A stretch of 34,036 nucleotides of DNA from Bacteroidota bacterium (GTDB lineage: Bacteria > Bacteroidota > Bacteroidia > Bacteroidales > F082), in assembly GCA_009773165.1 (NCBI GenBank), contig WOUZ01000022.1, positions 1 through 34,036 on the forward strand. The letters are read 5' to 3'. The notes below the pieces were generated by a model, which searched no databases, had not been told where the DNA came from, and worked only from the letters and a program-made list of their open reading frames with translations. The translations under genes were made by a program, and so were the position numbers. Of this stretch, positions 10,432 through 30,298 are shown piece after piece. How positions within the stretch are numbered: position 1 is the first letter of the stretch; each line of letters begins with the position of its first letter.

Positions 10432-10458
10432 AAAGAAAAAATAGTCATACCTTTATGT

Positions 10459-10617: not shown

Positions 10618-10620
10618 CGC

Positions 10621-10660
10621 AAGCCTCAACCATGACAAAGAATGGCTGCTTGAGGCTTTT
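10621..10660 (+). terminator. Terminator-like hairpin
   Basis: AAGCCTCAA (10621-10629) pairs with TTGAGGCTT (10650-10658), followed by TT. The loop is 20 bases and the T run is short. It lies just after the transposase remnant and may be its relic terminator. Confidence 0.45.
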
Positions 10661-10853
10661 CACTTCGATTTTTTCGCTGATGCAGCGATGCCGCAGACTT
10701 CTTGTTAAATTGTGGAATGAATTTGATGGTGGTGGGCACACATGGCTTGCTACCACTGCAAGATGATACTGATGAATAACTTCGGTTACTAAGATTCACA
10801 TCTATCCGGATGGGCTATACCGGCAATAAGCATCACTAAAGGTTCGTTTTCTT

Positions 10854-10877
10854 GTACTTTCCCTTGATGGAAAGTAC
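10854..10877. repeat. REP-like palindrome
   Basis: GTACTTTCC (10854-10862) and GGAAAGTAC (10869-10877) form a perfect 9-bp hairpin with a 6-base loop. Similar CTTGTACTTTC...GAAAGTAC hairpins are, as I recall, dispersed in intergenic regions of Bacteroidetes. There is no T run, so it is not an intrinsic terminator. Confidence 0.5.
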
Positions 10878-10891
10878 CAAAGATCATCAAA

Positions 10892-10922
10892 AGGTGACAG
10901 GTGACAGGGTGACGAGTGACAA
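10892..10922 (+). repeat. Short GTGACAG heptamer tract
   Basis: Four to five imperfect 7-base units (GGTGACA, GGTGACA, GGGTGAC, GAGTGAC). The length and composition match the larger tracts further right, with the G-rich strand on plus. Confidence 0.6.
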
Positions 10923-11122
10923 GGCTGCCTTGCCGGATTTTCTGTTGTTTTTTTATTCACCCGACCGCTGCCCCGTGGGGCGCACGAGGCTCACGCACCC
11001 ATCCCGGTGATGTTGGGAAGTGTTTTATGGATATGTGATTCCCAAAAAGTCTTTGAATCCAGAGGTAATGATTCGATTAGGCCTTTGGCATTTCGGTTTT
11101 AGGTGACGCATTGTGGAAGTCA

Positions 11123-11251: not shown

Positions 11252-12877
11252 TTATGCTTTAGGTATCAAATCTTCAGTTTTAATTGCTGGTGCTTTAAAA
11301 ATACCCAGCAATCCGTTTATCCCCACCGTCATAATAACATTATAAAGAAAAGCCAGAAAAGCAATTAACAGCAATGCTCCTGAAATTGCGGCCAACACCA
11401 TATACGGCATAAACTCACCATTTATATACAAAGTGCGTCTGAGCATACCATGTAGTCCGGCCATTCCCATAAAGGCACCCATTCCGATACCTCCAATGAG
11501 GTGGGCCCAGAAATGTATATTTGTTAATTTCTGACTATAAAGTTTTGCTCCGTTGGTAAGTATTGGCAGCAGGAAATAAATGGCAGAATACAAGGTCATA
11601 CTTAAACCAATAAGTATCGCAACATGAACATGTGGGCCAATAATCCATTGCGTGTTGTGTAAAATACGGTTCAAGCCAAGGTCGGCCTGCATAATACCAG
11701 CTGGTACGGCGAGTGCAAATCCTAGTAAACCTCCTAAAAGGAATTTCAGCGGATTCGACATTTTCAGCGGACGGGCACTCCATAAAGTAGCCAGTGTTAT
11801 AAAAAAGGCAAGTCCCTGAGTGATAAGCTCGAAAGCGGTTACCATTTCGCCTGATACAACTTTTAACCAGCCGGGTTGAGCCTGATCACTCATCAGGTGA
11901 TGCGACCAAACAGTCCATGACACTATCAGTTCAATAAGCAAGGCTGCACGTGCCCAGTTCTCCATAAATAACTTTTTCCCTGTGATCAAAGTGGCAAGCA
12001 AATACCAGGTACCTGCCACAAATATCAGTACTAAACCATCTGCAATAAGATCGAGACCCCACCAGAACCAGTTTTTGTATAAAAGGGCGTCTACAGCAGT
12101 TTCTTTCAGATCAAATCCCAGCAATGCGCCAACCATATAAACCAGAATCAGCACGCCCGTAAAAAGTATAATGGCCGCATTTAAAGCAACATCAACTGTT
12201 CCACGTGCAATAGCAGCAACAGGAAGTGAAACCAGATGCTCTTGCCGGTTTTTCTTTTTTGAAAACAGGTTTTTAAACCCGCTGTATCCGAGTGCCGATC
12301 CCAATAACGCAGAGGCCGGCTGTTTCTTCCAACCATTGGGAGTATATAGTATTGTTTTGAAAATATTTATAACAAACAGTGCGGTTCCAACCATCACAAT
12401 GGCAATGCCAAGGATAAAAAAAGTACCACCGACAACACTGAATTGGGTAAAATCGGCAGGCAATGGCCAATATAATGTGTATAAAGGCGCATAATGGGAT
12501 ATAAATCCGGCAGCCCAAAAAATGAAGGTTCCGATGGCTATGCACCAGAACGTCCAGTTGGCCATTTTGATGCTCCATAAGGGTTTGTTCATCAAAAAAG
12601 GAACAAGAAACAGAAAAGCACCAAAAACAATTAAATAGGTAGAACCAAAAATTCCTACCAATGGGTGCGCTGTAAGTATGGCAAAATACTGATTAGTAGT
12701 TACAGCCTCAATAGGGCTGACAGCATACATTCTCATAATCATTCCCTCTATTACAACAAGACCGTAATAAAGCAGACCGACTACCACAAAACGCAGTGTT
12801 ATCTTTTGCAAGGGAGTTAGTGATGTGTGTTTAAACAATCCCTGTTCTCCATTCATTAATGTATTTATATAGCTCAT
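11252..12877 (-). CDS. Divergent heme-copper oxidase subunit I, NO reductase-like
   Basis: This 541-residue protein has about 12-14 membrane helices and belongs to the heme-copper oxidase superfamily. Candidate ligands are H71 (helix II, TAHPLVG; low-spin heme), H326-H327 (WSHHLM; active-site metal) and H416 and H418 (GPHVHVA; active-site and low-spin hemes). The helix VI ligand is not His: in place of HPEVY (oxidases) or HLWVEG (cNOR/qNOR) it reads WWGLDLIADG, with D276 and D280 at the NorB His and Glu positions. The cross-linked Tyr of oxygen-reducing enzymes is also absent. This points to an NO reductase-like or otherwise atypical enzyme in the inner membrane. It is second in an operon 29 bases after subunit II, beside an NsrR-like regulator that supports an NO role. 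The exact substrate remains inferred. Confidence 0.85.
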   Translation of the reverse strand: MSYINTLMNGEQGLFKHTSLTPLQKITLRFVVVGLLYYGLVVIEGMIMRMYAVSPIEAVTTNQYFAILTAHPLVGIFGSTYLIVFGAFLFLVPFLMNKPLWSIKMANWTFWCIAIGTFIFWAAGFISHYAPLYTLYWPLPADFTQFSVVGGTFFILGIAIVMVGTALFVINIFKTILYTPNGWKKQPASALLGSALGYSGFKNLFSKKKNRQEHLVSLPVAAIARGTVDVALNAAIILFTGVLILVYMVGALLGFDLKETAVDALLYKNWFWWGLDLIADGLVLIFVAGTWYLLATLITGKKLFMENWARAALLIELIVSWTVWSHHLMSDQAQPGWLKVVSGEMVTAFELITQGLAFFITLATLWSARPLKMSNPLKFLLGGLLGFALAVPAGIMQADLGLNRILHNTQWIIGPHVHVAILIGLSMTLYSAIYFLLPILTNGAKLYSQKLTNIHFWAHLIGGIGMGAFMGMAGLHGMLRRTLYINGEFMPYMVLAAISGALLLIAFLAFLYNVIMTVGINGLLGIFKAPAIKTEDLIPKA

Positions 12878-12906
12878 ATTAACAAGTTTTTTGTTTTTTC
12901 TTAAAA

Positions 12907-13452
12907 TTAATCAGTTACTTCCACTACATCCTTTTCGACCATAAATACACCATCCGGTCCAGAGTATTCCGTTGAACGGATTGAATAAACACCAGGCCTG
13001 TCGAATTGCCACAGGATATCGTTGTTGTGGCCAGGCAAAACCTGCATCTGGAAAACCATCGTGTTATCGTTACGAAACAGGCCAAATCCATAGGTAAGAT
13101 CACCTGAAGTAACATTGAATAACACTTTGTCGTTCGTTTTAATCATCATTTTTTCAGCCGGAAGCTGAAATTTGTGATTCTGAACACTGATGTCGAAAAC
13201 CTTATCGGCTTTAATGTCTGCCCTTTCCATATCCATTGGTTTCCACGGGATGGTATGCAGAGTTACCATGTGGATTGATACGCCAAGAAGGATGAGGAAT
13301 CCTACAAAAGTGTAAAAGAAGGCCGGTTTCACTTTCGAAGGGCCATGTGTTGTTACACGATATCCGAACCAGGCCATCAATAGTATGATTGCCAGCGCGT
13401 AAAAAGTGTAAATTAATGTTTGTCCGAATAGGACGGTGTTCGAGTCTACCAT
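12907..13452 (-). CDS. COX2-like cupredoxin subunit lacking the CuA site
   Basis: This 181-residue protein has two N-terminal membrane helices (about 12-30 and 43-62) and a periplasmic cupredoxin domain. The CuA motif CxExCGxxHxxM aligns exactly with STEYSGPDGVFM (residues 160-171). Both Cys are Ser and the His is Gly, while Glu, Gly and Met remain. The upstream CuA His is Tyr (TSGDLTYGF, Y121). The domain therefore should not bind CuA, as in quinol-oxidising family members, so electrons probably do not come from cytochrome c through CuA. It is the partner of the downstream subunit I (29-base gap) and is first in the pair. The start MVDSNTVLF follows an A-rich leader. Confidence 0.85.
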   Translation of the reverse strand: MVDSNTVLFGQTLIYTFYALAIILLMAWFGYRVTTHGPSKVKPAFFYTFVGFLILLGVSIHMVTLHTIPWKPMDMERADIKADKVFDISVQNHKFQLPAEKMMIKTNDKVLFNVTSGDLTYGFGLFRNDNTMVFQMQVLPGHNNDILWQFDRPGVYSIRSTEYSGPDGVFMVEKDVVEVTD

Positions 13453-14041: not shown

Positions 14042-14130
14042 CCGGAAGCCGGAAGCCGGAAGCCGGAGATCAGAGGTCGGAAGTCGGAGGACTAAGAGAC
14101 TGAGTGACGGAGAGAGGGGGTTTGGAGAGG
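14042..14130 (+). repeat. Imperfect 7/8-mer purine-rich tract 1
   Basis: The tract opens with four GGAAGCC-type units, passes to GGTCGGA/AGTCGGA units and ends in GACTGAGTGACGGAGA octamers. The purine-rich strand is plus. It lies 90 bases upstream of the Rrf2 gene start. The following 300 bases to 14430 are AT-rich, with no gene and no clear promoter. Confidence 0.8.
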
Positions 14131-14430
14131 AAATTATTTTGATACAAAAAGGTCAGGTGCATTTGGTGGATGAATAAAAAACAATTTTACTTTTGGGATC
14201 CAATGTTAAATAACAAAGTTATGCCGGAAAGCTGTATTTTGACTTCGACAACAATTTCACACCACAATATGAGATTTATTTGAACTGTTCATGTTATTTG
14301 CTTAGAGATTAGTGGAGTTGTAGTTAATTTTAGAATAACCGCTAAATTTTGAGTGTGTAATTGTTGGAAGAATGTTTAAAGAATAACATAGCAATTTTGA
14401 AATGATCATAATAAATTTAAAAATTAAAAT

Positions 14431-14898
14431 ATGAAATATACCAAGAGTAAGAGATTGCAATCAAATCGGCTTCTATTTTTAGGGGTTCTATTAATTTTAT
14501 TGGGATTATTCATTGGTTTATTCATTCCAATGATGACAAATCCCAGAATGGGGCTTACAGCTCATCTGGAAGGTGTTATGAATGGTATGTTATTGGTTAT
14601 TCTGGGACTTATTTGGAACAGAATAATATTAAATGACAGATGGTTAACTTATACATTTTGGCTAACACTCTATGGTTCTTTCGCAAATTTTGTGGCTGTT
14701 TTTATTGCAGCTTTAACAGGAGCAGGAAAAATGATGCCCATAGCAGGAGGTAAAGAAGGTACAGCTGTTATTGAAGGACTTATTTCATTCTTACTTATAA
14801 CACTTGCACTTGCAATGATTTTTGTTTGTATAGTTATTTTGACCGGACTTTATAGAAATCTAAACCAGGCTATTGACAATGACCAAAACAATAAATAG
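14431..14898 (+). CDS. Hydroxylaminobenzene mutase-like membrane protein
   Basis: This 155-residue protein has four hydrophobic helices. The stretch NPRMGLTAHLEGVMNGMLL (about 37-55) and the later FWLTLYGSFANF and GAGKMMPIAGG match my memory of the HabA/HabB hydroxylaminobenzene mutase family, which rearranges hydroxylaminobenzene to 2-aminophenol. The true substrate in relatives outside nitroarene degraders is unclear, and no other nitroarene gene is nearby. It is a single gene, followed about 70 bases later by structured element A, which may end its transcript. The ATG follows an A-rich leader, with no Shine-Dalgarno, normal for this phylum. Confidence 0.65.
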   Translation: MKYTKSKRLQSNRLLFLGVLLILLGLFIGLFIPMMTNPRMGLTAHLEGVMNGMLLVILGLIWNRIILNDRWLTYTFWLTLYGSFANFVAVFIAALTGAGKMMPIAGGKEGTAVIEGLISFLLITLALAMIFVCIVILTGLYRNLNQAIDNDQNNK

Positions 14899-14965
14899 AC
14901 TTCTTAAGAAGATGGTTTTGGATGCAATATTGAGATATTAATTGAAACATGGAAAGCTATTAGGT

Positions 14966-15036
14966 AACGCCAAGTCGAATTACCGAAGAGAAGCGAAAAA
15001 AGAGCCATTATGCTGATAAGGGGTAATGGTTTTTTG
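14966..15036 (+). ncRNA. Structured intergenic element, copy A
   Basis: The element reads AACGCCAAGTCGAAT, then stem ATTACC (14979-14984) pairing with GGTAAT (15022-15027) around a conserved loop containing GAAAAAAGAGCCATTAT and CTGATAAGG. An alternative and incompatible hairpin, CCATTA (15005-15010) with TAATGG (15024-15029), is followed by T6 (15030-15035) and looks like an intrinsic terminator. A second copy lies at 16243. It could be a terminator-type repeat, or an RNA switch with two folds. The rest of 14899-15313 is AT-rich with no gene seen. Confidence 0.5.
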
Positions 15037-15313
15037 GTATGTTTACTTTTGAGTGAAAAACCGCAGTGACTAATCTGCTTTAAACGGAAAATTATATGTT
15101 TTTGGAATAGCAGGCTTAGGGTGGAAGTTCTGTTAAAGTTTTAAACACTAAAAAGTCCGGTGGATGGCTTAAATATCTTTTTTTTTTAAATTTACGCGAA
15201 AATATGAATTTCACCCATTAACCCAAGTGAAATATTTACGCAAAAGTGCGGGTATTCACGTGTTAGCCACCAGGCAAGAAAAAATCCTGCGACCAAGATA
15301 AATAAGAGAAAAT

Positions 15314-15883
15314 ATGAAAGTACGAGAAAGCGGAATGCCTGAGTAAAAATTATGGAATGACTTTTTTGATACGGACTTGATTTTATCTGAATTGCTGATT
15401 GATTCCCGGATAAATGATTTAGTTGAGATAGGAAGTGGATATGGAACATTTACGATACCAACTGCTCAATTACTGAAAGGAAAATTGTTTGCCTTTGACA
15501 TCGAAAAGGATATGATTGATTATTTATCCAAAAAACTATCAAATCATAAAATTGACAATATAATCCTGGAGCAAAGAGATATTTTGACCCAAACTACTGG
15601 GTTAGCTGATAATTCGGTTGATTATGTAATGCTTTTTAATATTCTTCATCATGATTCACCGAAAGACTTTTTAAATGAGTCATTTCGGATTTTAAAACAA
15701 AACGGCAAACTTGGGATTATTCATTGGCGAAGCGATATTTCAACTCCACGAGGACCTGACTTGAATATAAGACCTAAACCTGAGCATATAATTGATATGA
15801 TTGACAATAAAAGATTTAATATTGCAAAAAAACCTTTTATTTTGGAGCCTTATCATTACGGTTTAGTAATTTCAAAAATTTAA
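15314..15883 (+). pseudogene. Class I SAM methyltransferase with an early in-frame stop
   Basis: The frame from ATG 15314 reads MKVRESGMPE, then TAA (15344-15346), then KLWNDFFDTDLILSELL and on to 15883. MKVRESGMPE followed by a W-x-x-FFD segment is the recognised start of a methyltransferase family, so the stop interrupts codon 11 of a gene of about 189 codons. Downstream are motif I (VEIGSGYGTFTIPTA), the acidic motif II (FAFDIEKD) and a motif IV/VI region (DYVMLFNILHH). An alternative TTG start at 15377 would give a 168-residue product that keeps the SAM site but loses the N-terminal cap. It lies 11 bases before a DsrE-like gene. Substrate unknown. Confidence 0.75.
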
Positions 15884-15894
15884 ATATACAGAAT

Positions 15895-16215
15895 ATGAAA
15901 ATTGGAATCATTATAGAAACAAAAGAATATGAAAAAGCATGGAATGCTTTTCGATTTGCAGTAACAGCAAAAAAACAAAATCATGAAGTGAAGGTTTTTT
16001 TGATGGGAGAAGCTGTTGAATGTGAAGGGCTAACACATGAAAAATACAACGTTGACGAGCAATTAAAATCATTTGTAGCTATTGGCGGCGAAATACTTGC
16101 TTGTGGCACTTGTTTAAAATCAAGACAACTAAACGAAACCGATGCTTGTCCAATTTCTACAATGATTGATTGTGTAAATCTTGTTGTTTGGGCGGACAAA
16201 ACAGTAACTTTTTAA
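15895..16215 (+). CDS. DsrE/DsrF-like small sulfur-relay family protein
   Basis: This 106-residue cytosolic protein has the DsrE-like Rossmann-type pattern: MKIGIIIETKEYEKAWNAFRFA, VKVFLMGEAVEC and a late Cys-rich segment GGEILACGTCLKSRQLNETDACP (about 65-87), ending NLVVWADKTVTF. The CGTC cysteines resemble the active Cys region of sulfur-relay relatives, which carry sulfane sulfur. It is 11 bases after the methyltransferase frame, so the two were probably an operon. The real donor or acceptor is unknown. Confidence 0.8.
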   Translation: MKIGIIIETKEYEKAWNAFRFAVTAKKQNHEVKVFLMGEAVECEGLTHEKYNVDEQLKSFVAIGGEILACGTCLKSRQLNETDACPISTMIDCVNLVVWADKTVTF

Positions 16216-16242
16216 TGGAAAAGAAAAGAATGCCATTTAATT

Positions 16243-16307
16243 AACACCAAGTCGAATAGCCAAAAACCCTTGAAAAAGAGCCATTATTCTGATGAGGGTT
16301 TAGGGCT
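16243..16307 (+). ncRNA. Structured intergenic element, copy B
   Basis: The element begins AACACCAAGTCGAAT like copy A. Its stems differ but still pair: AGCC (16258-16261) with GGCT (16304-16307), and AAACCCT (16264-16270) with AGGGTTT (16295-16301). The loop keeps GAAAAAGAGCCATTAT and CTGATGAGG. It lies 27 bases after the DsrE-like stop. There is no T run, so simple termination is less likely than in copy A. Confidence 0.5.
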
Positions 16308-16371
16308 GATTTGAGGATTTGAGGATTTGACCCGAAACTTTTGGGTTTGAGGATTTATGATTTGAGGATTT
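16308..16371 (+). repeat. GATTTGAG octamer tract
   Basis: Imperfect direct units GATTTGAG, about five copies, interrupted by CCCGAAACTTTTGGG, which can form a small hairpin. It directly abuts structured element B. Same polarity as the purine tracts. Confidence 0.65.
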
Positions 16372-16425
16372 TAAAGATTTATATGTGTGTTTGAAGAATA
16401 GTCCTTGCAATGGCTTGGTGACATT

Positions 16426-16626
16426 TGGGACTTTTGGGACTGAGTGACTTAGAGACTAAGAGACTAAGAGACTGGGTGGCGGAGAGAGGGGGAGAGACGA
16501 GTCAGTTGCAAGGTCAGAGGTCGGAGGTCGGAGGTCAGTGGTCGGAGGACTGAGAGACTGATTATTTTGACTTTAGCGACTTGAATGAGGTAGGCGAATT
16601 GAGCGGGTTTAGCGAGGTGGGTATGG
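16426..16626 (+). repeat. Imperfect 7/8-mer purine-rich tract 2
   Basis: GACTGAGT / GACTAAGA octamers are followed by GGTCGGA heptamers (dense to about 16560), then a more decayed part. The purine strand is plus. It lies between the DsrE-like gene and a SpoIIAA-like gene on the other strand; no gene is supported in 16216-16679. Confidence 0.75.
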
Positions 16627-16679
16627 TTCGTGATCATTAAAACATGGGTTTGGAGTGGTGTCTGAGAATTTGGCAATTA

Positions 16680-17054
16680 CTACAGTAAAAAATTGATGGC
16701 AGATTCCAAGGTTGTGAACGTTTTAATGTGAAAATCCAGTTTTTTACTTGCTGTTGTTTCGTACATCAATGAAAATAAGGTTTCGTTGGGTCCATCAACA
16801 ATAACTGCATTTCGCTTGTCCTTCAGAATGTCCTTCAAGGATATGAGAAATGAATCAACAATGGGTATATCTTTGGTGGTGAATGCAAATTTGGCGTCCC
16901 GGTAATCACTGATCAGATTGTAGTTTTCACGACTAAATTCAGGCATGAGGATGAGTTGCTCCCAGGCTCGTCGTACGTCTTGCCGTTCGATTGTGCCTGA
17001 ATGCCTGTAGTGAATGTACTTTTTTTCGTGGTTAATTTCAAAAGAGTGATTCAT
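16680..17054 (-). CDS. SpoIIAA/STAS-like small cytosolic protein
   Basis: This 124-residue protein has no signal or membrane segment. The pattern YIHYRHSGTIERQDVRRAWEQL, then NLISDYRDAKFAFT and late FHIKTFTTLESAINFLL, resembles short SpoIIAA-like/STAS-type proteins common in Bacteroidetes, in which an alternating alpha-beta fold ends in a helix. No phospho-acceptor Ser can be assigned with confidence. It stands alone between two repeat tracts, reads minus, and has no operon partner. Confidence 0.7.
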   Translation of the reverse strand: MNHSFEINHEKKYIHYRHSGTIERQDVRRAWEQLILMPEFSRENYNLISDYRDAKFAFTTKDIPIVDSFLISLKDILKDKRNAVIVDGPNETLFSLMYETTASKKLDFHIKTFTTLESAINFLL

Positions 17055-17330
17055 AGCTTGAAATGGTTTGAGGTTACAATATTACTTGTCAATAGGCTCG
17101 ACATGGTTGAAGACTCATCCAAAGAAGAATCACTCAATAGTATGTCTCACAGCCGTAGAGTTATGTTATCAGGTTTAAAAATGTCATTTCTGTTTGAAGT
17201 TAAGAAAAGATCGCTAATACAACTAATTACACAAATAAAATCCTTACCAAGGAACAAATTGGGGTAAAAGTATGAAATAGCGTGGTTATTTCTTCAAAAT
17301 AAATTTTTGTTTTCTTTTTCAAACGAGCTT

Positions 17331-17386
17331 GGTGGAGGGGGTAGCGACTTGGGAGACTGTGAGAGGGGGTGACTGAGGGACGGAAG
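17331..17386 (+). repeat. Imperfect 7/8-mer purine-rich tract 3
   Basis: A short, decayed tract of GACTTGGGA, GACTGTGAGAGG and GACTGAGG units; the purine strand is plus. It lies in the 379-base gap between two minus-strand genes (17055-17433), which is otherwise AT-rich and empty. Confidence 0.6.
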
Positions 17387-17433
17387 ATTCAAGTTATAAA
17401 GAATTCATTAGCGAAACGGGAGCTTAACAAGGT

Positions 17434-18192
17434 TTAGACTTTTGAGGGTTTAGCATGACAGTTATTCTTTACGGTCCATGTGATATTTTGCCATCCTTGG
17501 CCAATTACTTCGTTAAGCGTGCCATAGTTTTCATTTACAAAAAAGATGCTGTCCAGATTAGTCAAATCGTTTCTGGTTATTTTGCGTTCGATAAATGTTT
17601 GGTCTTTTAAAGAAATGATTATCAATTGAATGGATTTTTTAGAATCAGTCCAATGAGATTGAAAATCAAAAAATGATTTGTAAAGGTTGGTAAAAATGCT
17701 TCCATATTTTTTATTACAAAGTTTGCCGCTATCAGCATTGTCGAGCATGTGAATGTATACTCCATCTTTTTTTTCATGAATTAATTTAAAAATGTCACGA
17801 GCTATGGTTTTTAAGTACATATTCTTGTGTTTAAATACAATGTTAAGGATCCGGGAGTAAATGCCCCGTTTCCTTTCGAAAATGCACAAATCTATATATG
17901 CGGCTACGCCATCGATATCTAATTTAAAATCTTCGGGTGATTTACCAAAAATGAATTTAACGAGAGTTGGGGTTTCAATTGAATAAAAAAGATGAGGAAA
18001 TAACTTTTGAAATTCTTCGGTAAACAAATGGCGGAACTCGAGTTCCGATATTTTATTTTTTAATAAGGTACCATCGCTTTTAGTGAGTATGGGTATAATG
18101 AGTTTTTCGGAGGATATGCCTCCATTCTTTTCAAAATTTAACGATGATAAACGAGTTAAAACATTTGTGGTTGTTTGTATAATATCTATCAT
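17434..18192 (-). CDS. Unknown protein, possible degenerate PD-(D/E)XK-like fold
   Basis: This 252-residue cytosolic protein was not recognised by family. The central region GVAAYIDLCIFERKRGIYSRILNIVFKHKN (about 94-123), followed by ARDIFKLIHEKKDGVYIHMLDNADSG, has the layout of a PD-(D/E)XK nuclease-like core: Asp in one strand, a gap, then a hydrophobic strand ending in K, then a helix with D and K. The Glu of the ExK motif is not there (IVFK), so any nuclease activity is doubtful. It is AT-rich, isolated between two repeat tracts and on minus, and has no partner gene. Confidence 0.65.
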   Translation of the reverse strand: MIDIIQTTTNVLTRLSSLNFEKNGGISSEKLIIPILTKSDGTLLKNKISELEFRHLFTEEFQKLFPHLFYSIETPTLVKFIFGKSPEDFKLDIDGVAAYIDLCIFERKRGIYSRILNIVFKHKNMYLKTIARDIFKLIHEKKDGVYIHMLDNADSGKLCNKKYGSIFTNLYKSFFDFQSHWTDSKKSIQLIIISLKDQTFIERKITRNDLTNLDSIFFVNENYGTLNEVIGQGWQNITWTVKNNCHAKPSKV

Positions 18193-18433
18193 ACTATCAA
18201 TGTTTTATAATATTTGTTTATGATATATGACGTGATTATAATGCTTAAAAAATGGCAGCCCCCGTTGATAAAATGACAACAAAGCAGGAATCGAATCCCT
18301 ATGATGTTGATCCGCTATAACAGGAATTTGATGCACATTAAAAGAGCATTGAGAGTTAATGACGCCATATAGATTGTTTTATGTTGTGTACCACAAATAT
18401 GAAGATTATTTTTGAAAGTATGATTAAAAAGAT

Positions 18434-18464
18434 TTTGCTTAGGTACGCGAAATGTTTATTTTTG
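18434..18464 (+). promoter_or_regulatory. Perfect-match promoter of a candidate small RNA
   Basis: TTTG (18434-18437), a 19-base spacer and TATTTTTG (18457-18464) match the Bacteroidetes consensus exactly. It is the best promoter in the window, and no protein gene follows it. Transcription should start near 18470. Confidence 0.7.
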
Positions 18465-18469
18465 TGGTA

Positions 18470-18598
18470 GCAAAGCAGCAATGAGGCCGTTGTTCCCAAC
18501 TTCGCGCCAGTGATATCACAAGCATCTCCGATCATCCTGGGTTTAGCCTTAACATTGCAAAAAAAAAGCTCTGGCAAATGTGTCAGGGCTTTTTGTTT
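18470..18598 (+). ncRNA. Candidate small RNA of about 130 nt
   Basis: The stretch lies between a consensus promoter and an intrinsic terminator. It has a long-range stem, GCAATGAGGC (18478-18487) pairing with GCCT (18546-18549) and CATTGC (18553-18558) around a 3-base bulge. Inside are CCCA/TGGG and a GTGATATCAC palindrome. No ORF of convincing length starts in it on the plus strand. It does not look like SRP RNA, tmRNA, RNase P or tRNA. The rest of 18193-19077 holds repeats, with no other gene supported. Confidence 0.6.
18563..18594 (+). terminator. Intrinsic terminator of the small RNA
   Basis: AAAAAGCTCTG (18563-18573) pairs with CAGGGCTTTTT (18584-18594) with one G-T wobble and a 10-base loop. 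The T run is part of the right arm. On minus it could also act, given the A run upstream. Confidence 0.7.
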
Positions 18599-18610
18599 GG
18601 GATATTTTTA

Positions 18611-18810
18611 GACGAAGGGAGTTGAGGGACTGAGAGACTTTAGAGACTTGAGTGACTGAGGGACTGAGAGACGGGTTGGAGGTCGGAGGTCGAGTCAGTC
18701 GGAAGTCGGAGGTCGGAGGAGGGAGAGACTGAGAGACTTGAGACTTGAGAGACTGAGGGACTGTTTGACTTAGAGACTGAGCGAATTAAGCAAATGATAG
18801 ACTGAGAGGT
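18611..18810 (+). repeat. Imperfect 7/8-mer purine-rich tract 4
   Basis: GACTGAGA/GACTTGAG octamers and GGTCGGA/AGTCGGA heptamers alternate in blocks. The purine strand is plus. It starts 16 bases after the small RNA terminator. Confidence 0.85.
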
Positions 18811-18941
18811 GTTGATATTAAGTGTTTCGCTGTAATGTTGATGATCCAATCGGGTGGGTGGGGTGGTTCAAAAAAGAGGTTGAGTTCCTGACTATAGTAA
18901 CGGTAATAATTGATTGTGCAAATTTAGGCTAAAGATAAATA

Positions 18942-18973
18942 CTTGACTTTTAGTTATTAATACCATACATTTG
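18942..18973 (+). promoter_or_regulatory. Promoter of the outer-membrane protein gene
   Basis: CTTG (18942-18945), a 20-base spacer and TACATTTG (18966-18973). The expected start near 18980 gives a leader of about 100 bases before the ATG at 19078. Confidence 0.45.
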
Positions 18974-19077
18974 GCGCGATTGTTTTAAAAAAAAGCAGTT
19001 CAAAATATTTTAAGAGTGTAAAAATGCACTTAAATAGAGATTAAGGTACTTTATTACTAATTTTAAAATGTAAAACC

Positions 19078-20085
19078 ATGAAAATTAAATTTACCATCAG
19101 CCTATTTTTTTTAATTTGTTTTAGTGTGCTTAAAGTATTTGCTCAGGAAAGTACACCGACTTCAGCAGTGGATACACTAAAGACCCATATTATTACGAAA
19201 AATGACCGGACAACCTTTGTTGGAAAGATCATCTCGCAGGACTTACGTGAGGTTTTGATCGAGACAAAGGAATTAGGGTTAATTGCCATACCAAAGCATG
19301 AAATCCGGGAAATACGTGAGGTCGGAGAACGGGAACTGAATGTTAAAGGAGACTATGTACCCGGAGAAGTTTTTGCAACCCGCTATTTTATCACTACTAA
19401 CGGACTCGCAATCGCCAAGGGTGAGAACTATATGATATGGAATATTTTTGGTCCTGATGTGCAGTTTGGTGTGGGCGAAAATTTTGGACTAGGGGTAATG
19501 ACATCATGGCTGGGATCGCCCATCATCGGGACAGCAAAATACAGCATCCCCTTTAATAAAACCACAAGCATGGCAATCGGATTGCTGGCGGGTACTGATA
19601 CCTGGTATGGAACTGGTTTTGCATTGATACTACCATATGTTGCATTTACTGTAGGCGACAGGGTGGCAAATCTCACATTTTCTGCTGGTTACGGTGCTGT
19701 TGGATATAAAGTAGAACAATACAATTATTTAACAGGACAATCATCCAAAGAAAGGGAGAGTGAGGGTCGGATGCTCCTGTCTTTCGCCGGAATGTTTAAA
19801 GTAGGTAAGTCAATCAGCATTGTTTTTGATACGTTTATCGTGCCCGGGGGTAATAAATACCAGACCACCGAATGGTATGAATATCTTAATCCTATTACAG
19901 GTTTCATTGAATCAAGGGAGCGAACTGTTACCAAGAAGCGAGAAGGATTTGCACTCATACTTCCGGGACTCAGGTTTCAAACGAGTCCCAATAAAGCTTT
20001 TCAGTTCGGCTTTGCAGGCGTTTTCGCTGGTGGTGGAGCAGTTCCTGTGCCAATTCCAATGATACAGTTTTTCCAAAAGATATAA
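19078..20085 (+). CDS. Secreted outer-membrane beta-barrel-like protein with N-terminal SH3/LSm-like domain
   Basis: This 335-residue protein begins with a signal peptide (MKIKFTISLFFLICFSVLKVFA|Q). Residues about 36-85 (HIITKNDRTTFVGKIISQDLREVLIETKELGLIAIPKHEI) form a small beta domain seen at the start of many Bacteroidetes envelope proteins. The rest alternates Gly/aromatic beta strands (GVGENFGLGVMTSWLG, YGTGFALILPYVAFTVG, FSAGYGAVGYKVE), as expected of an outer-membrane barrel, and ends IQFFQKI. No enzyme motif is seen and the specific role is unknown. It is monocistronic and flanked by repeat tracts on both sides. Confidence 0.8.
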   Translation: MKIKFTISLFFLICFSVLKVFAQESTPTSAVDTLKTHIITKNDRTTFVGKIISQDLREVLIETKELGLIAIPKHEIREIREVGERELNVKGDYVPGEVFATRYFITTNGLAIAKGENYMIWNIFGPDVQFGVGENFGLGVMTSWLGSPIIGTAKYSIPFNKTTSMAIGLLAGTDTWYGTGFALILPYVAFTVGDRVANLTFSAGYGAVGYKVEQYNYLTGQSSKERESEGRMLLSFAGMFKVGKSISIVFDTFIVPGGNKYQTTEWYEYLNPITGFIESRERTVTKKREGFALILPGLRFQTSPNKAFQFGFAGVFAGGGAVPVPIPMIQFFQKI

Positions 20086-20126
20086 AGGTGAGAACTAATT
20101 CTTAATAGCAATTCAGGTTAATTGTT

Positions 20127-20293
20127 GTCGGAGATCAGAGGACGGAGGTCGGTGGACTGAGAGACGGAGGGAGGGAGAGACTGAGAGACAGAGAGATCAG
20201 AGGTCGGAGGTCGGACGGACTGAGAGACTGAGAGACTGAGAGACTTGAGGGACTGAGAGACGGAGGTCGGAGGTCAGAGGAAGGGACTGAGAG
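20127..20293 (+). repeat. Imperfect 7/8-mer purine-rich tract 5
   Basis: GGTCGGA heptamers with GACTGAGA octamers (three in a row near 20219-20242). The purine strand is plus. It fills the space between the barrel gene stop and the shared terminator. Confidence 0.85.
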
Positions 20294-20297
20294 TAAT

Positions 20298-20330
20298 AAA
20301 AAAGGCCGAAGGGTTAAGTTCAGCCTTTTT
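20298..20330. terminator. Bidirectional terminator
   Basis: AAAAAGGC (20299-20306) pairs with GCCTTTTT (20323-20330). On minus the transcript ends in TTTTTTATTA; on plus in TTTTTC. It can serve both the small minus gene at 20361 and the plus gene ending at 20085. Confidence 0.75.
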
Positions 20331-20360
20331 CTTCCATCATTTTATCTTCTCAGCGTGACA

Positions 20361-20477
20361 TCATTGCCCAATTTTGGTGTCGTCACGCTCCTCAATAAAT
20401 GGAGCGTTTTTAATGGCATGTATAACCGCTACAATACCAAAAGCTGAAAAGATAACTAAAACAATAAGTGCGATCAT
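20361..20477 (-). CDS. 38-residue single-helix membrane peptide
   Basis: The minus frame from ATG 20477 reads MIALIVLVIFSAFGIVAVIH followed by a charged tail (AIKNAPFIEERDDTKIGQ) and TGA. It has one hydrophobic helix (residues 1-20) and a polar C-terminus. An upstream in-frame TGA limits extension. A -7 element lies about 50 bases upstream and a terminator 31 bases downstream, which together make a compact transcription unit. No family was recognised. Small membrane peptides may be regulators or toxins, but nothing here shows which. Confidence 0.5.
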   Translation of the reverse strand: MIALIVLVIFSAFGIVAVIHAIKNAPFIEERDDTKIGQ

Positions 20478-20525
20478 GACAGCATTTTTTTTAGAACGTT
20501 TAGTCAATCACGTTAATTGATGTTT

Positions 20526-20533
20526 CAAAAATA
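20526..20533 (-). promoter_or_regulatory. Candidate -7 element of the 38-residue peptide gene
   Basis: TATTTTTG on minus matches TAnnTTTG. No TTTG is found at the proper -33 distance. The 480-base gap 20478-20963 otherwise holds only AT-rich DNA and tract 6. Confidence 0.4.
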
Positions 20534-20720
20534 ATTTAATATTTGACATATGTCGTATTTCTCATAATTAATTTTAACATTATGTTATTTATTTTTAACA
20601 TTTAACATTTTGTCATGAAAATGAATGAGTTATTTGAATCAAAGGGGTTCCTTATTTTATTTTGAATTGATCTTGAGCATATTCTTTGGTTAATTATTGA
20701 TGCGTATCAAATGAGAAACA

Positions 20721-20961
20721 GGGACGGAGGTCAGAGGTCGGAGGTCGGAGGTCGGTGGACTGAGAGACGGAGGGAGGGAGAGACGGAGGGAGGGAGAGAC
20801 AGAGGGAGGGAGAGACTGAGAGACGGAGGTCGGAGGTCGGAAGTCGGAGGTCGGAAGTCGGAGGGACTGAGTGACGGAGAGACTGAGAGACTGAGTGACG
20901 GAGAGCCTGAGAGACTGAGAGACTTAGAGACAGAGAGAAGGGGAAGTCGGAGGTCGGAGGG
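20721..20961 (+). repeat. Imperfect 7/8-mer purine-rich tract 6
   Basis: GGAGGTC heptamers, GACGGAGGGAGGGAGA units and GACTGAGA octamers over about 240 bases; the purine strand is plus. It ends two bases before the stop codon of the restriction-modification gene. A plus-strand frame open through it is just repeat-encoded (RSEVGG-type peptides). Confidence 0.9.
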
Positions 20962-20963
20962 TT

Positions 20964-23900
20964 TTACTCGATCTTAAACTGGTCGATTTGGTTCATTATT
21001 CGGTGTGTTTCGTTTAGGGCGACGATGATTTTTTGGTAATGCTGAATATCCTCAAACTCTAAATTGCGTTCTTTCCGGTCTTTCAACCACTTTTGAGCAG
21101 GCTGATAACCGCCAATGTAAAAGTTCCAGGCTACTTCCGGCACATTGGCAAAATACTGTGTTTCGTTGATAAAAACTTTGCCATCCATGTATTGAACTTT
21201 ACTTACAACATTGTTTCCATCAACAGGATATTGCGTTATAAACTTGTTTACGACTGGGCTCTCAAGCAAATGTATCAGCCGTACCTCACCACCCAGCTTT
21301 ACCAATTGCCAGAAGGTGTCTATATCTTTTGGATATGGCACTCTCGGAAAATCAATCTTTAAGAACTCTTTGTATTTCTCACGGTATGTTGGTGAATGTA
21401 AAACGGCATAGATGTAATCTAATATGTCAATTGGAGCAAAGGTGTTTTCGGTTGTTTCTTTTTCGTTGGTGAATGTCAAGCTTAATTTTTCAGCTATTTG
21501 ATTAACAATTTCTGCGTTTAGGTTTGGAGTTCTTTCTGTTAATTGTCCGATTGTTTGTTGGGCGGTTACAGTAGGGTAAATGTATAAAGGAAAAGCACAT
21601 GGCCCCCCACGTCTAAACATATTAGTATCAGTAAAGCAATTTGTGATGTAAACACAATCAAAAAAGTTTAGATTTGCTGCTTGTGGCTGTGCAACTAAAA
21701 TAAGACCAATATTTTCCTTTTTTAAATGATAAATTGTTTTCTCTCTTGCTCTGCCTAAAAGTTTTGTGTCATAATAAATGTAACCATTATCAAAAGGCCG
21801 ATAAGAGTATTTGCAAACTTTTGAATTGTCAAATTGTTGACTGAGTTTAATAATGTTCTTTTCTAACACTTCTCGACTATCAGAAACAAAGTTTACGTCA
21901 TCATGTGTTTTAATACCACTTGTTTTGAATGGCATTAATTTTATCAACTCAAAGCCTTTTGAATAGTCCTTTTCTTCAATAAAATCTTTTGGGATAAAAA
22001 AATAATTTGGTGCATTTACAAATATTTCTCTATATCCCACACCTTTAATGTCATTTTCAAAAAGGAATTCATATTTCATCTCTCTTTTACCGAATAAATC
22101 AAAATGAAATACTTTACCTAATTCGTTTGCTTTTTTCTTTCCGGTTTTTACGAAAATATTGATTGAAACACCTTGCATAATATCAAAGACATTTTCATCA
22201 GTACTACCATCGTGTGCGGTTTCTTTTTTTGTGCTATTTCCGTGAAGGTCTATTGTAAATATTTTATCAAAAGTTTTAAGTAAATTCCAACGCATACCTC
22301 TACAAATTGAAGCATCTAAAAAGGTATGTGGATTAATAAAAGATAATATACCGCTTCCATTTTTTTCTATGTAATACTGTCCATATCTTATGAATTTGTA
22401 TTCATCAGCATTAATGGCTTTTGAGTTTTTTTCTTTTAATTTCACATCAGTACCCGGTTCTTTTTTATAATCTTCCATCAAGCTCATTATCCATTCGCCT
22501 TTATTGGCACTTTCACCGCTGTACGGTGGATTTCCAATAATACACATTACAGGCGTATCACGTTTTATGTGGTTGGCTTCGTTGGCTTCGGTGCTGAGCC
22601 AATTGGCAAACAAAGTGCCCGTGTCGGGGTGGTGTTCTTCGAGGCTATTGGTTAAATAAACCCTGAAACGCTGGTCTTTGGTGGGTTTGTAACCTGTTTC
22701 GGTGAGTAACAAATCCAATTTTAAATGAGCCATGGCATAACTTGCCATCAACAACTCAAAGCCATTGAGGCGTGGTAACAAATGCGTTTCAACATAATTG
22801 CTCCAGATACCTTGCTGCCCTTGAAAGGTTGCATGAATGTGTTTGATTACTTCGGCTAAAAATGTGCCTGTTCCGGTTGCCGGATCGAGTATCTGAACTT
22901 TGTGTACTTCCTGTTCGATCATTTTACCCTGTACACTTACCTTAATTTTGGTTTTACTTGTGTCGGCAAGACCTTGCGGTAAATCAAATTCAGATTTTAA
23001 TAGATCGTCAACGGCGCGAACGATGAAATTAACTACCGGAGCAGGTGTGTACCAAACGCCACGTGCTTTGCGCAATTTGGGGTCGTACTCGCTCAGGAAG
23101 GTTTCATAAAAATGGATGATGGGGTCTTCCATTTTGGTGCTTTTTCCGTAGTTTTTCAAAATCTCATCCACATTGCAGGCAAGGAAAATATTTACCAAAT
23201 CGTCAACAATCCACTTGATACGGTCATCAACATCAAGTCCTGCAATGTATCCAAACAGTTTTTTAAGAAATGGATTTGATTTTGGTATGAGTTCGTATGC
23301 TTCCTGCCGGCTGAAAGTTGGCAACGTAGCATCATGCGAACGCGCTGCAAACATTCCGTAAGCAATGGTTTGAGCGTACACATCGGCAAAGCCTTTGGGT
23401 GTAATATCGTGTATCAGGATTTGTTTAAAGGCATGCATTTGGTCTTTCAGCGTGCTGTCTTCGCTGTTGTCTTCATCGCTTGTTAAAGCTTTTTCAATAA
23501 CCTCGGAAAGAAGACGGGCTTTACCTGCCATCATTTCAGCCAGTTTCTTGCTGCTTGTGATGGTTTGCCCAATGTGTGTGCAGAAATCTTTGAGAAAATT
23601 GGTAAAAGTCAAAAAGTTTTCAGGCAGGGGCTTGATGCCTTTCGGTGTTAACTCAGCAATAGTGACTCTGCTAACCAACCGGCCATCGCGGTACAACAGA
23701 AAATTAATATAGTCTGTAAAAATTAGGTTATCGAGAGAATCCTTGTAGCGGTCGAACTGCTCTTTGTTGCCAACTTTTTTTAGACCTTCGAGGTCTTTAT
23801 CACCAATGTCTTTAGCTTCGATAAAACCGACCGGGATATCTTTCCGTGTGAGGATATAGTCAGGAGCACCGCAAGATTGCCTTTTAGGTTCGTTGGTAGC

Positions 23901-24020
23901 CCTGATAGTTGGCACCATGCTTTCGATAAGTTGCTGCAAATCGCCCCTGAAGGTATGCTCGGTAGCGTTACCTAACTTATAACGCTTGTTGATTGTATCA
24001 ATGTATTGGTCGACGGTCAT
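20964..24020 (-). CDS. Fused type IIG-like restriction-modification enzyme (N6-adenine methylase)
   Basis: This 1018-residue enzyme combines cleavage and methylation. The N-terminal nuclease core is PD-(D/E)XK: GAPDYIL (D54) and FIEAKD (E68-x-K70). Residues about 150-310 are a helical connector. The methylase has motif X (GVWYTPAPVVNFIV, 321-334), motif I (LDPATGTGTFL, 378-388) and motif IV NPPY (497-500), typical of gamma-class N6-adenine methyltransferases. The C-terminal 400 residues should carry target recognition; IDILDYIYAVLHSPTYREKY resembles the type ISP C-terminal region. No helicase domain is present, unlike type ISP enzymes such as LlaBIII at about 1.6 kb of residues, so a type IIG label fits better. 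It has no partner gene and is bracketed by repeat tracts. It probably defends against foreign DNA. Confidence 0.9.
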   Translation of the reverse strand: MTVDQYIDTINKRYKLGNATEHTFRGDLQQLIESMVPTIRATNEPKRQSCGAPDYILTRKDIPVGFIEAKDIGDKDLEGLKKVGNKEQFDRYKDSLDNLIFTDYINFLLYRDGRLVSRVTIAELTPKGIKPLPENFLTFTNFLKDFCTHIGQTITSSKKLAEMMAGKARLLSEVIEKALTSDEDNSEDSTLKDQMHAFKQILIHDITPKGFADVYAQTIAYGMFAARSHDATLPTFSRQEAYELIPKSNPFLKKLFGYIAGLDVDDRIKWIVDDLVNIFLACNVDEILKNYGKSTKMEDPIIHFYETFLSEYDPKLRKARGVWYTPAPVVNFIVRAVDDLLKSEFDLPQGLADTSKTKIKVSVQGKMIEQEVHKVQILDPATGTGTFLAEVIKHIHATFQGQQGIWSNYVETHLLPRLNGFELLMASYAMAHLKLDLLLTETGYKPTKDQRFRVYLTNSLEEHHPDTGTLFANWLSTEANEANHIKRDTPVMCIIGNPPYSGESANKGEWIMSLMEDYKKEPGTDVKLKEKNSKAINADEYKFIRYGQYYIEKNGSGILSFINPHTFLDASICRGMRWNLLKTFDKIFTIDLHGNSTKKETAHDGSTDENVFDIMQGVSINIFVKTGKKKANELGKVFHFDLFGKREMKYEFLFENDIKGVGYREIFVNAPNYFFIPKDFIEEKDYSKGFELIKLMPFKTSGIKTHDDVNFVSDSREVLEKNIIKLSQQFDNSKVCKYSYRPFDNGYIYYDTKLLGRAREKTIYHLKKENIGLILVAQPQAANLNFFDCVYITNCFTDTNMFRRGGPCAFPLYIYPTVTAQQTIGQLTERTPNLNAEIVNQIAEKLSLTFTNEKETTENTFAPIDILDYIYAVLHSPTYREKYKEFLKIDFPRVPYPKDIDTFWQLVKLGGEVRLIHLLESPVVNKFITQYPVDGNNVVSKVQYMDGKVFINETQYFANVPEVAWNFYIGGYQPAQKWLKDRKERNLEFEDIQHYQKIIVALNETHRIMNQIDQFKIE

Positions 24021-24135
24021 GGAATAGAGATAGTAATTTGGCTGTAAATTTATTGATTTTGTAGAAGTAATCTTTTGTTTTCTTTAGATAAGATGATTAC
24101 CGCATAAATAAATCATAATGAGTTGAGGATATTAA

Positions 24136-24400
24136 CGGAGGTCGGAGGTCGGAGGGCGGAAGTCGGGGGTCGGAAGTCGGAGGTCGGAGGTCAGAGGTCA
24201 GAGGTCGGAAGTCGGAGATCGGAGTCGGAAGTCGGAGGTCTGAGGTCGGAGATCAGAGATCGGAGGTTAGAAGTCGGAGGTCTGAGGACTGAGAGACGGA
24301 GTGACGGAGGGAGAGAGAGGGAGGGATCAGAGGTCGGAGGGCGGAGTTCGGAAGTCGGAGATCTGAGGTCAGAAGTCAGAAGTCTGTCAGAGGTCGTGGG
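24136..24400 (+). repeat. Imperfect 7/8-mer purine-rich tract 7
   Basis: This is the longest tract, about 265 bases, mostly RGTCRGA heptamers (GGTCGGA, AGTCGGA, GGTCAGA), with a GACTGAGAGACGGAGTGACGGAGGGAG block. The purine strand is plus. It lies 115 bases upstream of the restriction-modification gene and 310 bases before the kinase operon. Its long plus-strand open frame is an artefact of the repeat. Confidence 0.9.
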
Positions 24401-24712: not shown

Positions 24713-27700
24713 ATGAATAGTGTCGAAAATTTTCCGGAATGGATTATCGAAAAGTGGCAGGAGATCGCTAATTTGATCGCCGATTTACTTGATGTTCCAG
24801 CGGCTTTAATTATGAAGAACGAGAATGAATACATGGAAGTATTTCTTTCAAGCGACTCCCAGAATAATCCATATAATGTTGGAAATAAAGAAAAATCATA
24901 TGGTACGTATTGTGAAGCCGTAATAAAAACTCAACAAAAATTATCTGTTACAAATGCAACAAAAGATATAATCTGGAATGAAAATCCTGGCATAAAGCTC
25001 GGAATGATTGCATATTTGGGATTTCCAATAAATTTCCCCGACAATCGACCTTTCGGCACGCTTTGCGTTCTTACAAATAAGGAGAGAGAATTTACATTGC
25101 ATGAAGAAAAACTACTGCTTCAATTTAAAAATGTTATAGAATTGGATTTGGTTTTACTTCAAACTTTTGACCTTAAAACCAAAGAATTTACCAAAACTCT
25201 TAAGGAACAGCAATCACACCAATTAGATAAAGATATTGAGTTTGAAAAAGCCAAAGAAAAAGCAGTAATAGCTTTACAGGAATCACATCAGTTGCTAAAA
25301 AGCACTTTCGATAGCCTGCAAGATGCTGTTTTTATTATTGACGCAAAGACTTCAACAATCACTGATTGTAATAATGCTGCAGCAGAAATATTTGGTTATA
25401 GCCGTCAGGAAATAGTGGGAAACTCGACGGAATTCCTCCATATTAATAAGGAAGCACTTGAAGAATTTCGCAAACAGCTTTATAGCGCTATTGCAGACAA
25501 AGGATTTCTATTTCTGCCCAGTTTCACAATGAGGCGAAGAGATGGTAATGTCTTTCCAACTGAACACACTGTCGTGCAGCTTTTGGATGAACAAGGAGCA
25601 CGAATTGGGTGGGTGAGTGTTGTAAAAGATATTACCACTGAGAAAAAGCATGACAATCTCATTCAAAATACGCTTGATATATATGAAAAGTCGGAACATT
25701 TAACAACTGAAGAGATTTTAAATTATTCAATTGAATTAGGTATTCAGCTTACAAACAGCGAAATAGGTTTTTTCCATTTTGTAAACTATGACCAGGAAAC
25801 TATTTCATTACAGACATGGTCGGCTAAAACAATGGAAATTTGTAATGTTCCCAAATTGGATACGCATTACCCAATTAGTAAAGCCGGAGTTTGGGTAGAT
25901 TGTTTTTATCAAAAAAAGCCTGTTTTCCACAACGATTATTCGAGTTTAACGCATAAAAAAGGCATGCCTGAAGGTCATGCAGCTTTAACAAGGGTATTAT
26001 CGGTTCCGGTTATTATCAAAAATAAAGTAGTAGCTATTTTTGGTGTAGGAAATAAGAAATTGGATTACGATAAAACAGACGCAGATTTTTTGTCCTTGTT
26101 TGCAGAAAATGTCTGGAATGTTGTCAGAAGAAAAAATGCTGAAATCGATAGAGTTAAAGCAAAAGAAATAGCTGAAGAAAGTGAAAACCGGTATCGTGGA
26201 TTAATCAGTAATATCAATGCGGGCGTTGTTGTTCATGCTGCTGACACTTCTGTTCTTATGAGTAACAGACGGGCAAATGAACTTTTAGGTTTAAGCGAAG
26301 AGCAGATAAAAGGGAAAGCCGCCATTGATCCTCATTGGAAATTTATTGATGAAGACAACATGCCAATTCCTCTTGACAATTATCCGGTAATGCGTATAAA
26401 AAAGAGCAAAGAACCAATAAATAATCAAATGGTTGGAGTTTGTCGTAGCTCAGACGATGTTGTTTGGTTAATGGCAAACGGATTTCCGGTTTTTGGTGAT
26501 ACTGACGAGCTATCTGAAATTGTAATAAGTTTTATCGATATCACCAAGCGAAAGTTGGGGGAGGAAAAGCTTAAAGAAAGTGAATTGAAATACCGATCTC
26601 TTATAGAAAGCTCAAGTGATGCCATTTTTTGTGTTGATGAAAATGGAGAATACAAGTTTACAAATCATCTGTTTGCATCAACTTTTGGAAAAACTCCTGA
26701 ATATTTTATTGGAAAAACCTTTTGGGATGTATACGATAAAGAACACGCGGATTATCGCTATGAAGCAACCAAACGATTATTTCGAACTGGAAAAACCGAA
26801 TCATCGGAGGTTGAGGTTCCTTTGCCTGATAAAACATTGTATTATCTTGCCACAACCAATCCGATTAAAGATGAATCGGGTCAGGTATTATTAAACCTTA
26901 TTCATGCTACCGACATAACTAAGCTCAAACAGATTGAGCACATGCTTCAAGAAAAAAGCGAAGAAATAGCAGCACAGAACGAAGAAATGGCTGTTCAAAA
27001 CGAAGAACTCTATCAAACAAATCTGAAACTCATTGCAGCAAAAGAGAAAGCAGAAAAAAGCGAACAGAAATTAAAATCAATTTTAGAAAACCTGCAAGAT
27101 GCTCTTTTTCAGGCTGATATAAAGGGTAACTTCACTTATGTCAATTCACGGGCAGCACGCATGTATGGATATTCGGAGAATGAATTACTTGGACTGCCGG
27201 CTTCAAAATTGTATGAAGATGCTATTGAACGTGATAAATTGATAGTAAACTTACGAAAAGAAGGAAAAGTATTTGACTGGACGGGTAAAGGCTTGAGAAA
27301 AGACGGCTCATGGTTTTGGGTTTCAATGAATGTGAAATTTATTATTGATAATCAAGGAAACATCACAGGAACTGAGGGTATCGTAAGAGATATAACGGAA
27401 CGCAAAAATGCTGAAGCAGAGCTTATTATTGCCAAAGAAAGAGCCATAGCAAGCGAAGAACGATTTAAGCTTGCCATGAATGCATCCCATGATGGATTAT
27501 TCGACTGGAATCTTGAAACCAACGAAATCTACTACTCAGTGGGATGGAAGAAAATGCTTGGATATGAGGATCATGAGCTTCCAAATGATTTTTCTATTTG
27601 GGAAAAAACAACTGAACCGCATGATGCTAAGAAATCATGGGATCTCCAGCAAAAGCTTATTTCGAAGCAAATTGATCGTTTTGTGATGGAATTTAAGATG

Positions 27701-30289: not shown

Positions 30290-30298
30290 GTAACGAAT

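Follow-up and report, generated by a model that had tools for sequence, protein, structure and literature searches.

The window analysed here is the whole of contig C24 (34,036 bases), one of 40 contigs of a 4.38-Mb draft genome of a Bacteroidota bacterium (G000 in our set of comparison genomes, which has one genome per species). Several of its spacers carry tracts of imperfect heptamer and octamer repeats, and these are most likely slippage-grown repeats within tolerant spacers of a gene-turnover neighbourhood, which now and then serve as junctions. The original prediction, made from the letters of the window alone, had offered two possibilities: the tracts are homologous patches that let single-gene blocks recombine, or they grow where insertions are tolerated. 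The evidence for growth in tolerant spacers is no weaker than that for the recombination patches, which are partly supported by one good junction and a weak general enrichment of breaks.

The presence of the tracts was assessed with Tandem Repeats Finder (TRF). At a score of at least 40 the window contains 10 arrays of period 7/8, compared with an average of 0.05 in 60 dinucleotide shuffles, none of which had more than 2; at a score of at least 50 there are 9 arrays, and none in the 60 shuffles. Seven purine-rich tracts had been predicted, and six of them (beginning at 14042, 16426, 18611, 20127, 20721 and 24136) are periodic beyond chance, the period-7/8 self-match of each exceeding that of 1000 out of 1000 dinucleotide shuffles of the same tract. 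The remaining one, at 17331, is purine-rich, but its periodicity lies within chance (97/1000 of its own shuffles reach it) and it is absent from the TRF output. Two further arrays, GATTTGAG at 16308–16330 and GTTTAGAG/TTAATGG at 33802–33939, were also recovered by TRF. The tract units are GGAGGTC, GACTGAGA and similar heptamers and octamers, with GGG in some only. Higher-order duplications of 63, 99, 24 and 21 bp were found by TRF inside the tracts, as is expected of slippage or unequal exchange.

Thirteen tracts of the genome were compared in pairs, with tracts simulated by Markov models of the same local units as the reference. Similarity between real tracts did not on average exceed similarity to the simulated ones (mean z of 0.06 at order 6, −0.29 at order 8 and −0.33 at order 10), and the most similar pair reached a z of 3.3 at order 6. 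Dispersal of tracts by copying was set aside on this test, as they have units in common and not long-range unit order. Because no common order extends beyond the repertoire, the tracts look grown locally rather than copied; a common unit repertoire together with local growth suffices for their resemblance, and copying of whole tracts is not needed. In the mechanism that we propose, a limited set of G/A-rich units of 7 or 8 letters (RGARRTC, GACTGAGA and similar ones) would lengthen and mutate via replication slippage and tandem duplication where long spacers are under little constraint. The accessory neighbourhoods of this genome would provide many such spacers, also with palindromic repeats and the dispersed elements X, Y and Z. 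Since a tract is repetitive and can tolerate being cut, blocks of a single gene could sometimes be joined or inserted there, which would explain why some block boundaries lie in tracts. We lean slightly towards this description of the tracts, as degenerate long simple-sequence repeats grown by slippage in tolerant spacers and sometimes used as junctions, and we infer that tolerance rather than function is the reason for their presence. Three points weigh against it. Slippage, the supposed motor of growth, was not directly observed; the G-richness of one strand (see below) is not predicted by local growth alone unless the strand bias is linked to replication; and the junctions at prophage locus C7 and at 20298–20716 (see below) suggest something beyond mere tolerance.

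The tracts are clustered. With one mismatch allowed, GGAGGTCGGAGGTCGG has 32 matches in the genome, 19 of which lie on C24, a contig that makes up 0.8% of the genome. The strict matches listed fall on 12 contigs (65 of the 70 own-genome matches to RGARRTC are listed), and among contigs of 100 kb or more (3.33 Mb of known length) the listed matches form four tract loci, one on C1 and three on C26. Period-7/8 tracts numbered 0 in four control stretches (80 kb), which came from contigs that lack strict hits (two of these contigs, C2 and C3, carry a period-7/8 array elsewhere; L139, L132), compared with 36 in 207 kb selected for tracts; 28 were present in 290 kb fetched for other reasons, mostly dispersed repeats. 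Three copies of RGARRTC without mismatch were found in 22/395 Bacteroidota genomes across the phylum, G000 included, versus 5/395 for the backward-read control. With one mismatch they were found in 26/61 relatives (G000 included; 23/37 in the same family), and we gave this count less weight because here the control matches 13/61. The octamer with one mismatch was present in 6/61 relatives (control 1/61). As the heptamer recurs in 22 of the 395 genomes, it needs no local machinery.

The tracts were predicted to lie between single accessory genes, and this holds as far as it was examined. In a homology search with 19.6 kb, in which the best 8 candidates were scored in each of 37 genomes, no match spanned two genes on either side of a tract. 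Where homologues of three of the genes (SpoIIAA-like, 335-aa protein, restriction enzyme) were inspected with their surroundings, no neighbour matched. The order of the rplU-rpmA-EamA genes and of the type IX secretion system (T9SS) cargo genes is kept in same-genus genomes; on the rplU side, same-genus homology ceases at the rpmA stop codon or at most 3 bases from it. Conserved adjacency was seen for 0/7 tract-bearing spacers versus 4/7 other spacers (Fisher P = 0.035), in a table that was filled by hand from the best 8 candidates per genome, counts the weak 17331 spacer and mixes taxonomic levels. One short example had been noted in the housekeeping stretch, and the rplU/T9SS side has a single array of score at least 40 (10893–10921, period 15 and 7), which sits between two aligned pieces of a dispersed repeat. 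The dispersed repeat of the window at 10342–11035 has copies of 93–97% at or near the ends of contigs C39, C28 and C20, and a short core (about 10847–10886) is copied in G001, G007 and G008.

Tracts that run in the same direction are scattered direct repeats, through which single-gene blocks could be gained, lost or swapped. We consider this doubtful as the general explanation, although it has one good case. The genome holds four related prophage-like loci (C5, C7, C22 and C37; stretches L024, L020, L019 and L029), all of which carry a small-terminase-like gene, the large-terminase gene terL and a common divergent gene; C37 also has a portal-like match under its curated cutoff. The order behind terL is tract, element X, cargo and element Y, and an MFS transporter, an RND efflux operon and a kinase-like gene are among the contents of the cargo slot. 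In C7, a 534-aa gene similar to the PAS kinases of the window (BLASTP) lies between terL and X. Positions 1404–2723 and 2725–3023 of C22 align to 6827–5505 and 3472–3165 of C7, which thus has an insert of about 2 kb, and the two pieces abut at 2723/2725 within the C22 tract, yielding an empty/filled pair whose exact joint is uncertain within a repeat and in which gain and loss of the insert are indistinguishable. The left tract remnant of C7 is periodic (0/2000 mononucleotide shuffles reach it); against the patches, the right remnant, which is short, shows no significant periodicity over 92 nt (396/2000). In C37 the aligned pieces meet at 9261–9264, within its tract, whereas the flanks in C5 leave a gap of 83 nt and the right piece begins 17 nt beyond the tract.

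Further evidence for exchange at tracts comes from element X, which has three different left neighbours (terL, Rrf2 and a PAS kinase) with the switch located in the tract, and from the block at 20298–20716 (419 bp), which ends 6 and 7 nt from the tracts on its two sides; this spacer is so rich in tracts that each end has a chance of 0.50 to lie so near to one. The same direction of all ten window arrays and the crowding of matches on C24 also fit, but units in common without a common unit order do not. Breaks were predicted to fall inside tracts, and the C22/C7 junction does so, but the overall enrichment is weak. In tract-bearing spacers, 69 of 301 homology ends lie within 12 nt of a tract versus 59.5 expected (P = 0.084), and in the own genome alone 56 of 225 versus 44.7 expected (P = 0.029). 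For this count a tract was any array of period 7/8/14–16, the expectation was from uniform placement, and chains below 100 bases, ends at most 150 bases from a stretch end and high-scoring segment pairs mostly in tracts were left out; the ends are not independent, and many come from dispersed palindromic repeats. Relative to G005 and G003, synteny breaks in the own C26 at a point whose nearest tract is 284 nt away. C28 and G006 have a 75-bp stretch in common at 97%, of which one end is the tract start in G000 and the other lies at no tract; G006 has no tract at the matching site. It is also conceivable, but unlikely, that the slippage-grown tracts act as landing pads: opening or stalling as they are replicated, they would take up single-gene DNA, after which the split tract would regrow on both sides. 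Accessory neighbourhoods would then be chains of single genes on same-direction tracts, and genes would move between prophage cargo slots and the chromosome in an integrase-free, cassette-like economy.

In all ten window arrays G exceeds C on the plus strand, and the flanking genes point both ways. The orientation of the tract equals the sign of the local GC skew in 11/12 stretches of G000 (hand count with masked skew); the 12 include four paralogous prophages, two stretches on one contig and three in which a predicted open reading frame (ORF) overlaps the tract. In hand counts with masked skew, the two agree in 12/18 same-genus stretches and in 13/24 of other genera, the latter being what remained of 38 after omission of 3 with tracts on both strands, 8 wholly within predicted ORFs and 3 without a detected tract. 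A rule by which replication polarity sets the tract strand appeared strong in G000 and loose in the genus and failed elsewhere, and the agreement is at most a tendency of the genus.

A role of the tracts as functional DNA signals, such as strand-oriented marks for replication or packaging, is very improbable. A tract follows the terL stop in 4/4 prophage loci of G000, degenerate tract-like sequence was seen by eye after terL in G005 and G016, and the one-strand bias within the genus would suit such a role. The tract detector, however, found none behind terL in G005, G016 and G027, the last of which has none by eye either, and in other genera orientation is not tied to skew. Moreover, tracts occur in 26/61 relatives (control 13/61) and this terL in 6/81 (G000 included); a phage-packaging site was ranked low because the tracts are commoner than this terL. 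The terL product has five distant relatives in viral contigs (34–43%), and its best match among named phages is 40%. Three of the viral contigs with terL were scanned and gave one short tract-like hit, about 9.6 kb from terL. A search of Rfam at gathering scores yielded nothing.

Tract 1 is followed directly by element X, an ORF and element Y (Table 1), and this block (14118–15050) is worn and related to an integron-like gene unit that also occupies a prophage cargo slot. In 18/18 copies of X within the genus the next same-strand ORF begins 2–257 nt downstream, a count that was limited to ORFs on the same strand, has no control and leaves out three weak matches and two of 32–35 bases. Element X was detected in 7/173 genomes of the family (best 4 candidates per genome), six of them in the same genus and two of the seven by 32–35 bases only; viral contigs gave no match to the X and Y patterns. 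The cargo behind X is unrelated (MFS, RND efflux, FGE-sulfatase, choloylglycine hydrolase and HsdM). In G003 (L174:5015–7247), X lies 221 nt upstream of the HsdM gene, so that restriction-modification genes are also found behind X. By eye, the X copies behind a tract are without the upstream part that is common to the tract-free copies. In the prophages, the window and C26, tract and X were therefore probably inherited together, and their common boundary would then be one event, not six.

The cassettes of integrons have arms of the form GTTRRRY and RYYYAAC, and we know of no integron of which 7/8-mer tracts are a part. Element X often ends with a ACAATCGTT-like core, and behind several of the genes lies the complement of the sequence after the core. 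The arm after X and the arm after the gene are complementary at 9/10 positions or more in 5/18 own pairs versus 5/306 cross pairs (permutation P = 0.0001), in a test made after the pattern had been seen in some units and with start anchors chosen by eye. These arms, the ORF behind every X copy and the unrelated cargo would be expected if the genuinely mobile single-gene units were integron-type cassettes, with the tract no more than the left edge of one platform lineage (tract-X-genes-Y) common to prophages and chromosome. We judge this to be quite unlikely. The window's own unit reaches 7/10 in the arm test, below the mark; two attC-like candidates (G005, G007) fold weakly better than shuffles (z of −1.48 and −1.69); an integron integrase motif was absent from 845 ORFs of at least 120 codons in the fetched stretches, the whole genome lying outside that search; and at most one of the six tracts would be covered. 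The site is given as G|TTRRRY, and integrons and attC clusters carried by phages are described, in a passage of PMC9892861; in an excerpt of PMC9024848, the IntegronFinder authors first report complete Bacteroidetes integrons only in their second survey. The units resemble the cassettes and integrase-lacking attC clusters in these excerpts (PMC9892861, PMC9024848) in the single genes, the complementary arms of some units, the diverse cargo and the phage copies, but differ in the conserved X and Y ends, in the integrase not seen in the 845 ORFs, and in the worn window copy. Overall, we are inclined to regard the tracts as something other than a dedicated cassette system, a view that forms part of the joint best explanation.

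Heptamer repeats in spacers are known from other lineages. The short tandemly repeated repetitive (STRR) heptamers of cyanobacteria are tandem, intergenic and present at many loci, and are supposed to grow by slippage. The long simple-sequence repeats (LSSR) of prokaryotes (Mrazek 2007, as cited in a passage of PMC4679880) are likewise intergenic tandem heptamers at many loci for which slippage was proposed. The window tracts have tandem units beyond chance (6/7 listed tracts) and occur at many loci in the genome and its relatives; they differ from LSSR and STRR in the mixture of 7- and 8-mers in one tract, the strong degeneracy, and the crowding at genes without conserved neighbours where these were examined. 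The GGGAATC heptamers of Xanthomonas and Nostoc are, in the portion of PMC4692102 at hand, G-rich repeats in spacers on both genome strands, with three G per unit, a preference for four units and, in Xanthomonas, more conserved places, which is the opposite of the window. The tracts have mostly GG pairs, up to 33 units (TRF) and non-conserved loci in the window, and thus depart from the G-quadruplex (G4)-type GGGNATC pattern in the number of G per unit and, in the window, in the kind of locus. TAACTGA repeats, which according to a passage of PMC4679880 occur in Beggiatoaceae and five Bacteroidetes, are also intergenic direct heptamer repeats whose role is given there as not established; they consist of one exact unit and lie mostly just upstream of start codons, neither of which applies to the window tracts. 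Titles and abstract beginnings of the open-access literature mention heptamer repeats in other lineages and none that name tracts of this kind. Should the turnover of single genes be marked or promoted by such tracts, the entry sites of accessory genes in Bacteroidota would become predictable from a simple sequence feature, and as the heptamer family is present in 22/395 genomes of the phylum, the question is probably approachable in a cultured relative. The common tract-X-gene-Y unit ties the cargo slots of prophages to a gene neighbourhood of the chromosome in a concrete way.

Table 1. Repeat tracts, dispersed elements and genes of the window, with the evidence for each.
Feature	Coordinates	Strand	Evidence
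7/8-mer tract 1 (CCGGAAG, then GGAGGTC/GACTGAGA units), element X directly after	14042..14117	+	TRF; 0/1000 shuffles
Element X, dispersed leader-like element of ~250 bp, starts at tract edge, precedes ORF	14118..14360	+	18 copies compared within genus
155-aa ORF without Pfam family, between X and Y	14431..14898	+	ORF list, Pfam
Element Y, dispersed, just past stop codon, terminator-like hairpin	14965..15050	+	C26 similarity continues to 15185
Second Y copy, after DsrE-like gene	16240..16307	+	homology
GATTTGAG 8-mer array	16308..16330	+	TRF
7/8-mer tract 2	16438..16555	+	TRF; shuffle test run on 16426–16563
SpoIIAA-like gene, under Pfam cutoff	16680..17054	-	Pfam search
Predicted tract 3, purine-rich	17331..17386	+	periodicity not above chance, 97/1000 shuffles
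252-aa protein, no Pfam or PADLOC family	17434..18192	-	Pfam, PADLOC
7/8-mer tract 4	18611..18808	+	TRF, shuffles
335-aa protein, no Pfam family (barrel-like in the original prediction)	19078..20085	+	homologues in other neighbourhoods where examined
7/8-mer tract 5, with 63-bp higher-order repeat	20127..20292	+	TRF, shuffles
Inter-tract block with terminator-like start and a short ORF on the minus strand	20298..20716	.	83% copy of G000:C21:307175-307599
7/8-mer tract 6, with 99-bp higher-order repeat	20721..20960	+	TRF, shuffles
Single-protein restriction-modification enzyme	20964..24020	-	Type ISP C-terminal domain 2.8e-76; PADLOC REase_MTase_IIG 1101 bits
7/8-mer tract 7, longest of all	24136..24400	+	TRF, shuffles
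PAS kinase upstream region and first codons	24405..24816	+	90% copy at G000:C26:113694-114108; homology starts 10 nt off tract 7
GTTTAGAG and TTAATGG arrays, contig end	33802..33939	+	TRF

The SpoIIAA-like block has 87% DNA homology to G003:C282 from position 16567, 12 nt off tract 2, and the G003 copy has by eye a different repeat array on the tract side. No strict tract occurs in the nine stretches that contain named relatives of the 335-aa protein, and the closest of these (L009) is without any common neighbour. The segment of C21 that matches the 20298–20716 block sits behind a SlyD-like gene, identified from the translation. The restriction-modification enzyme is flanked by tracts on both sides. 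Large PAS-domain sensor kinases or similar genes repeatedly adjoin tracts (24713–33802 in the window; L027, L028, L023 and L020). Contig C13 (L021:9941–11147) has arrays of longer units (21, 28, 42, 43 and 93 bp) beside a 7-mer tract, and at L026:9836–9903 a palindrome-rich repeat (for example CAGTGTAGTTTGCAACTACACTG), which has 11 more matches in the genome, lies immediately ahead of a tract. At 11252–13452 the window encodes a COX1-family oxidase and a 181-aa partner, whose same-genus matches are distant (29–32%), yet the DNA is 69% identical in G043, a member of another family.

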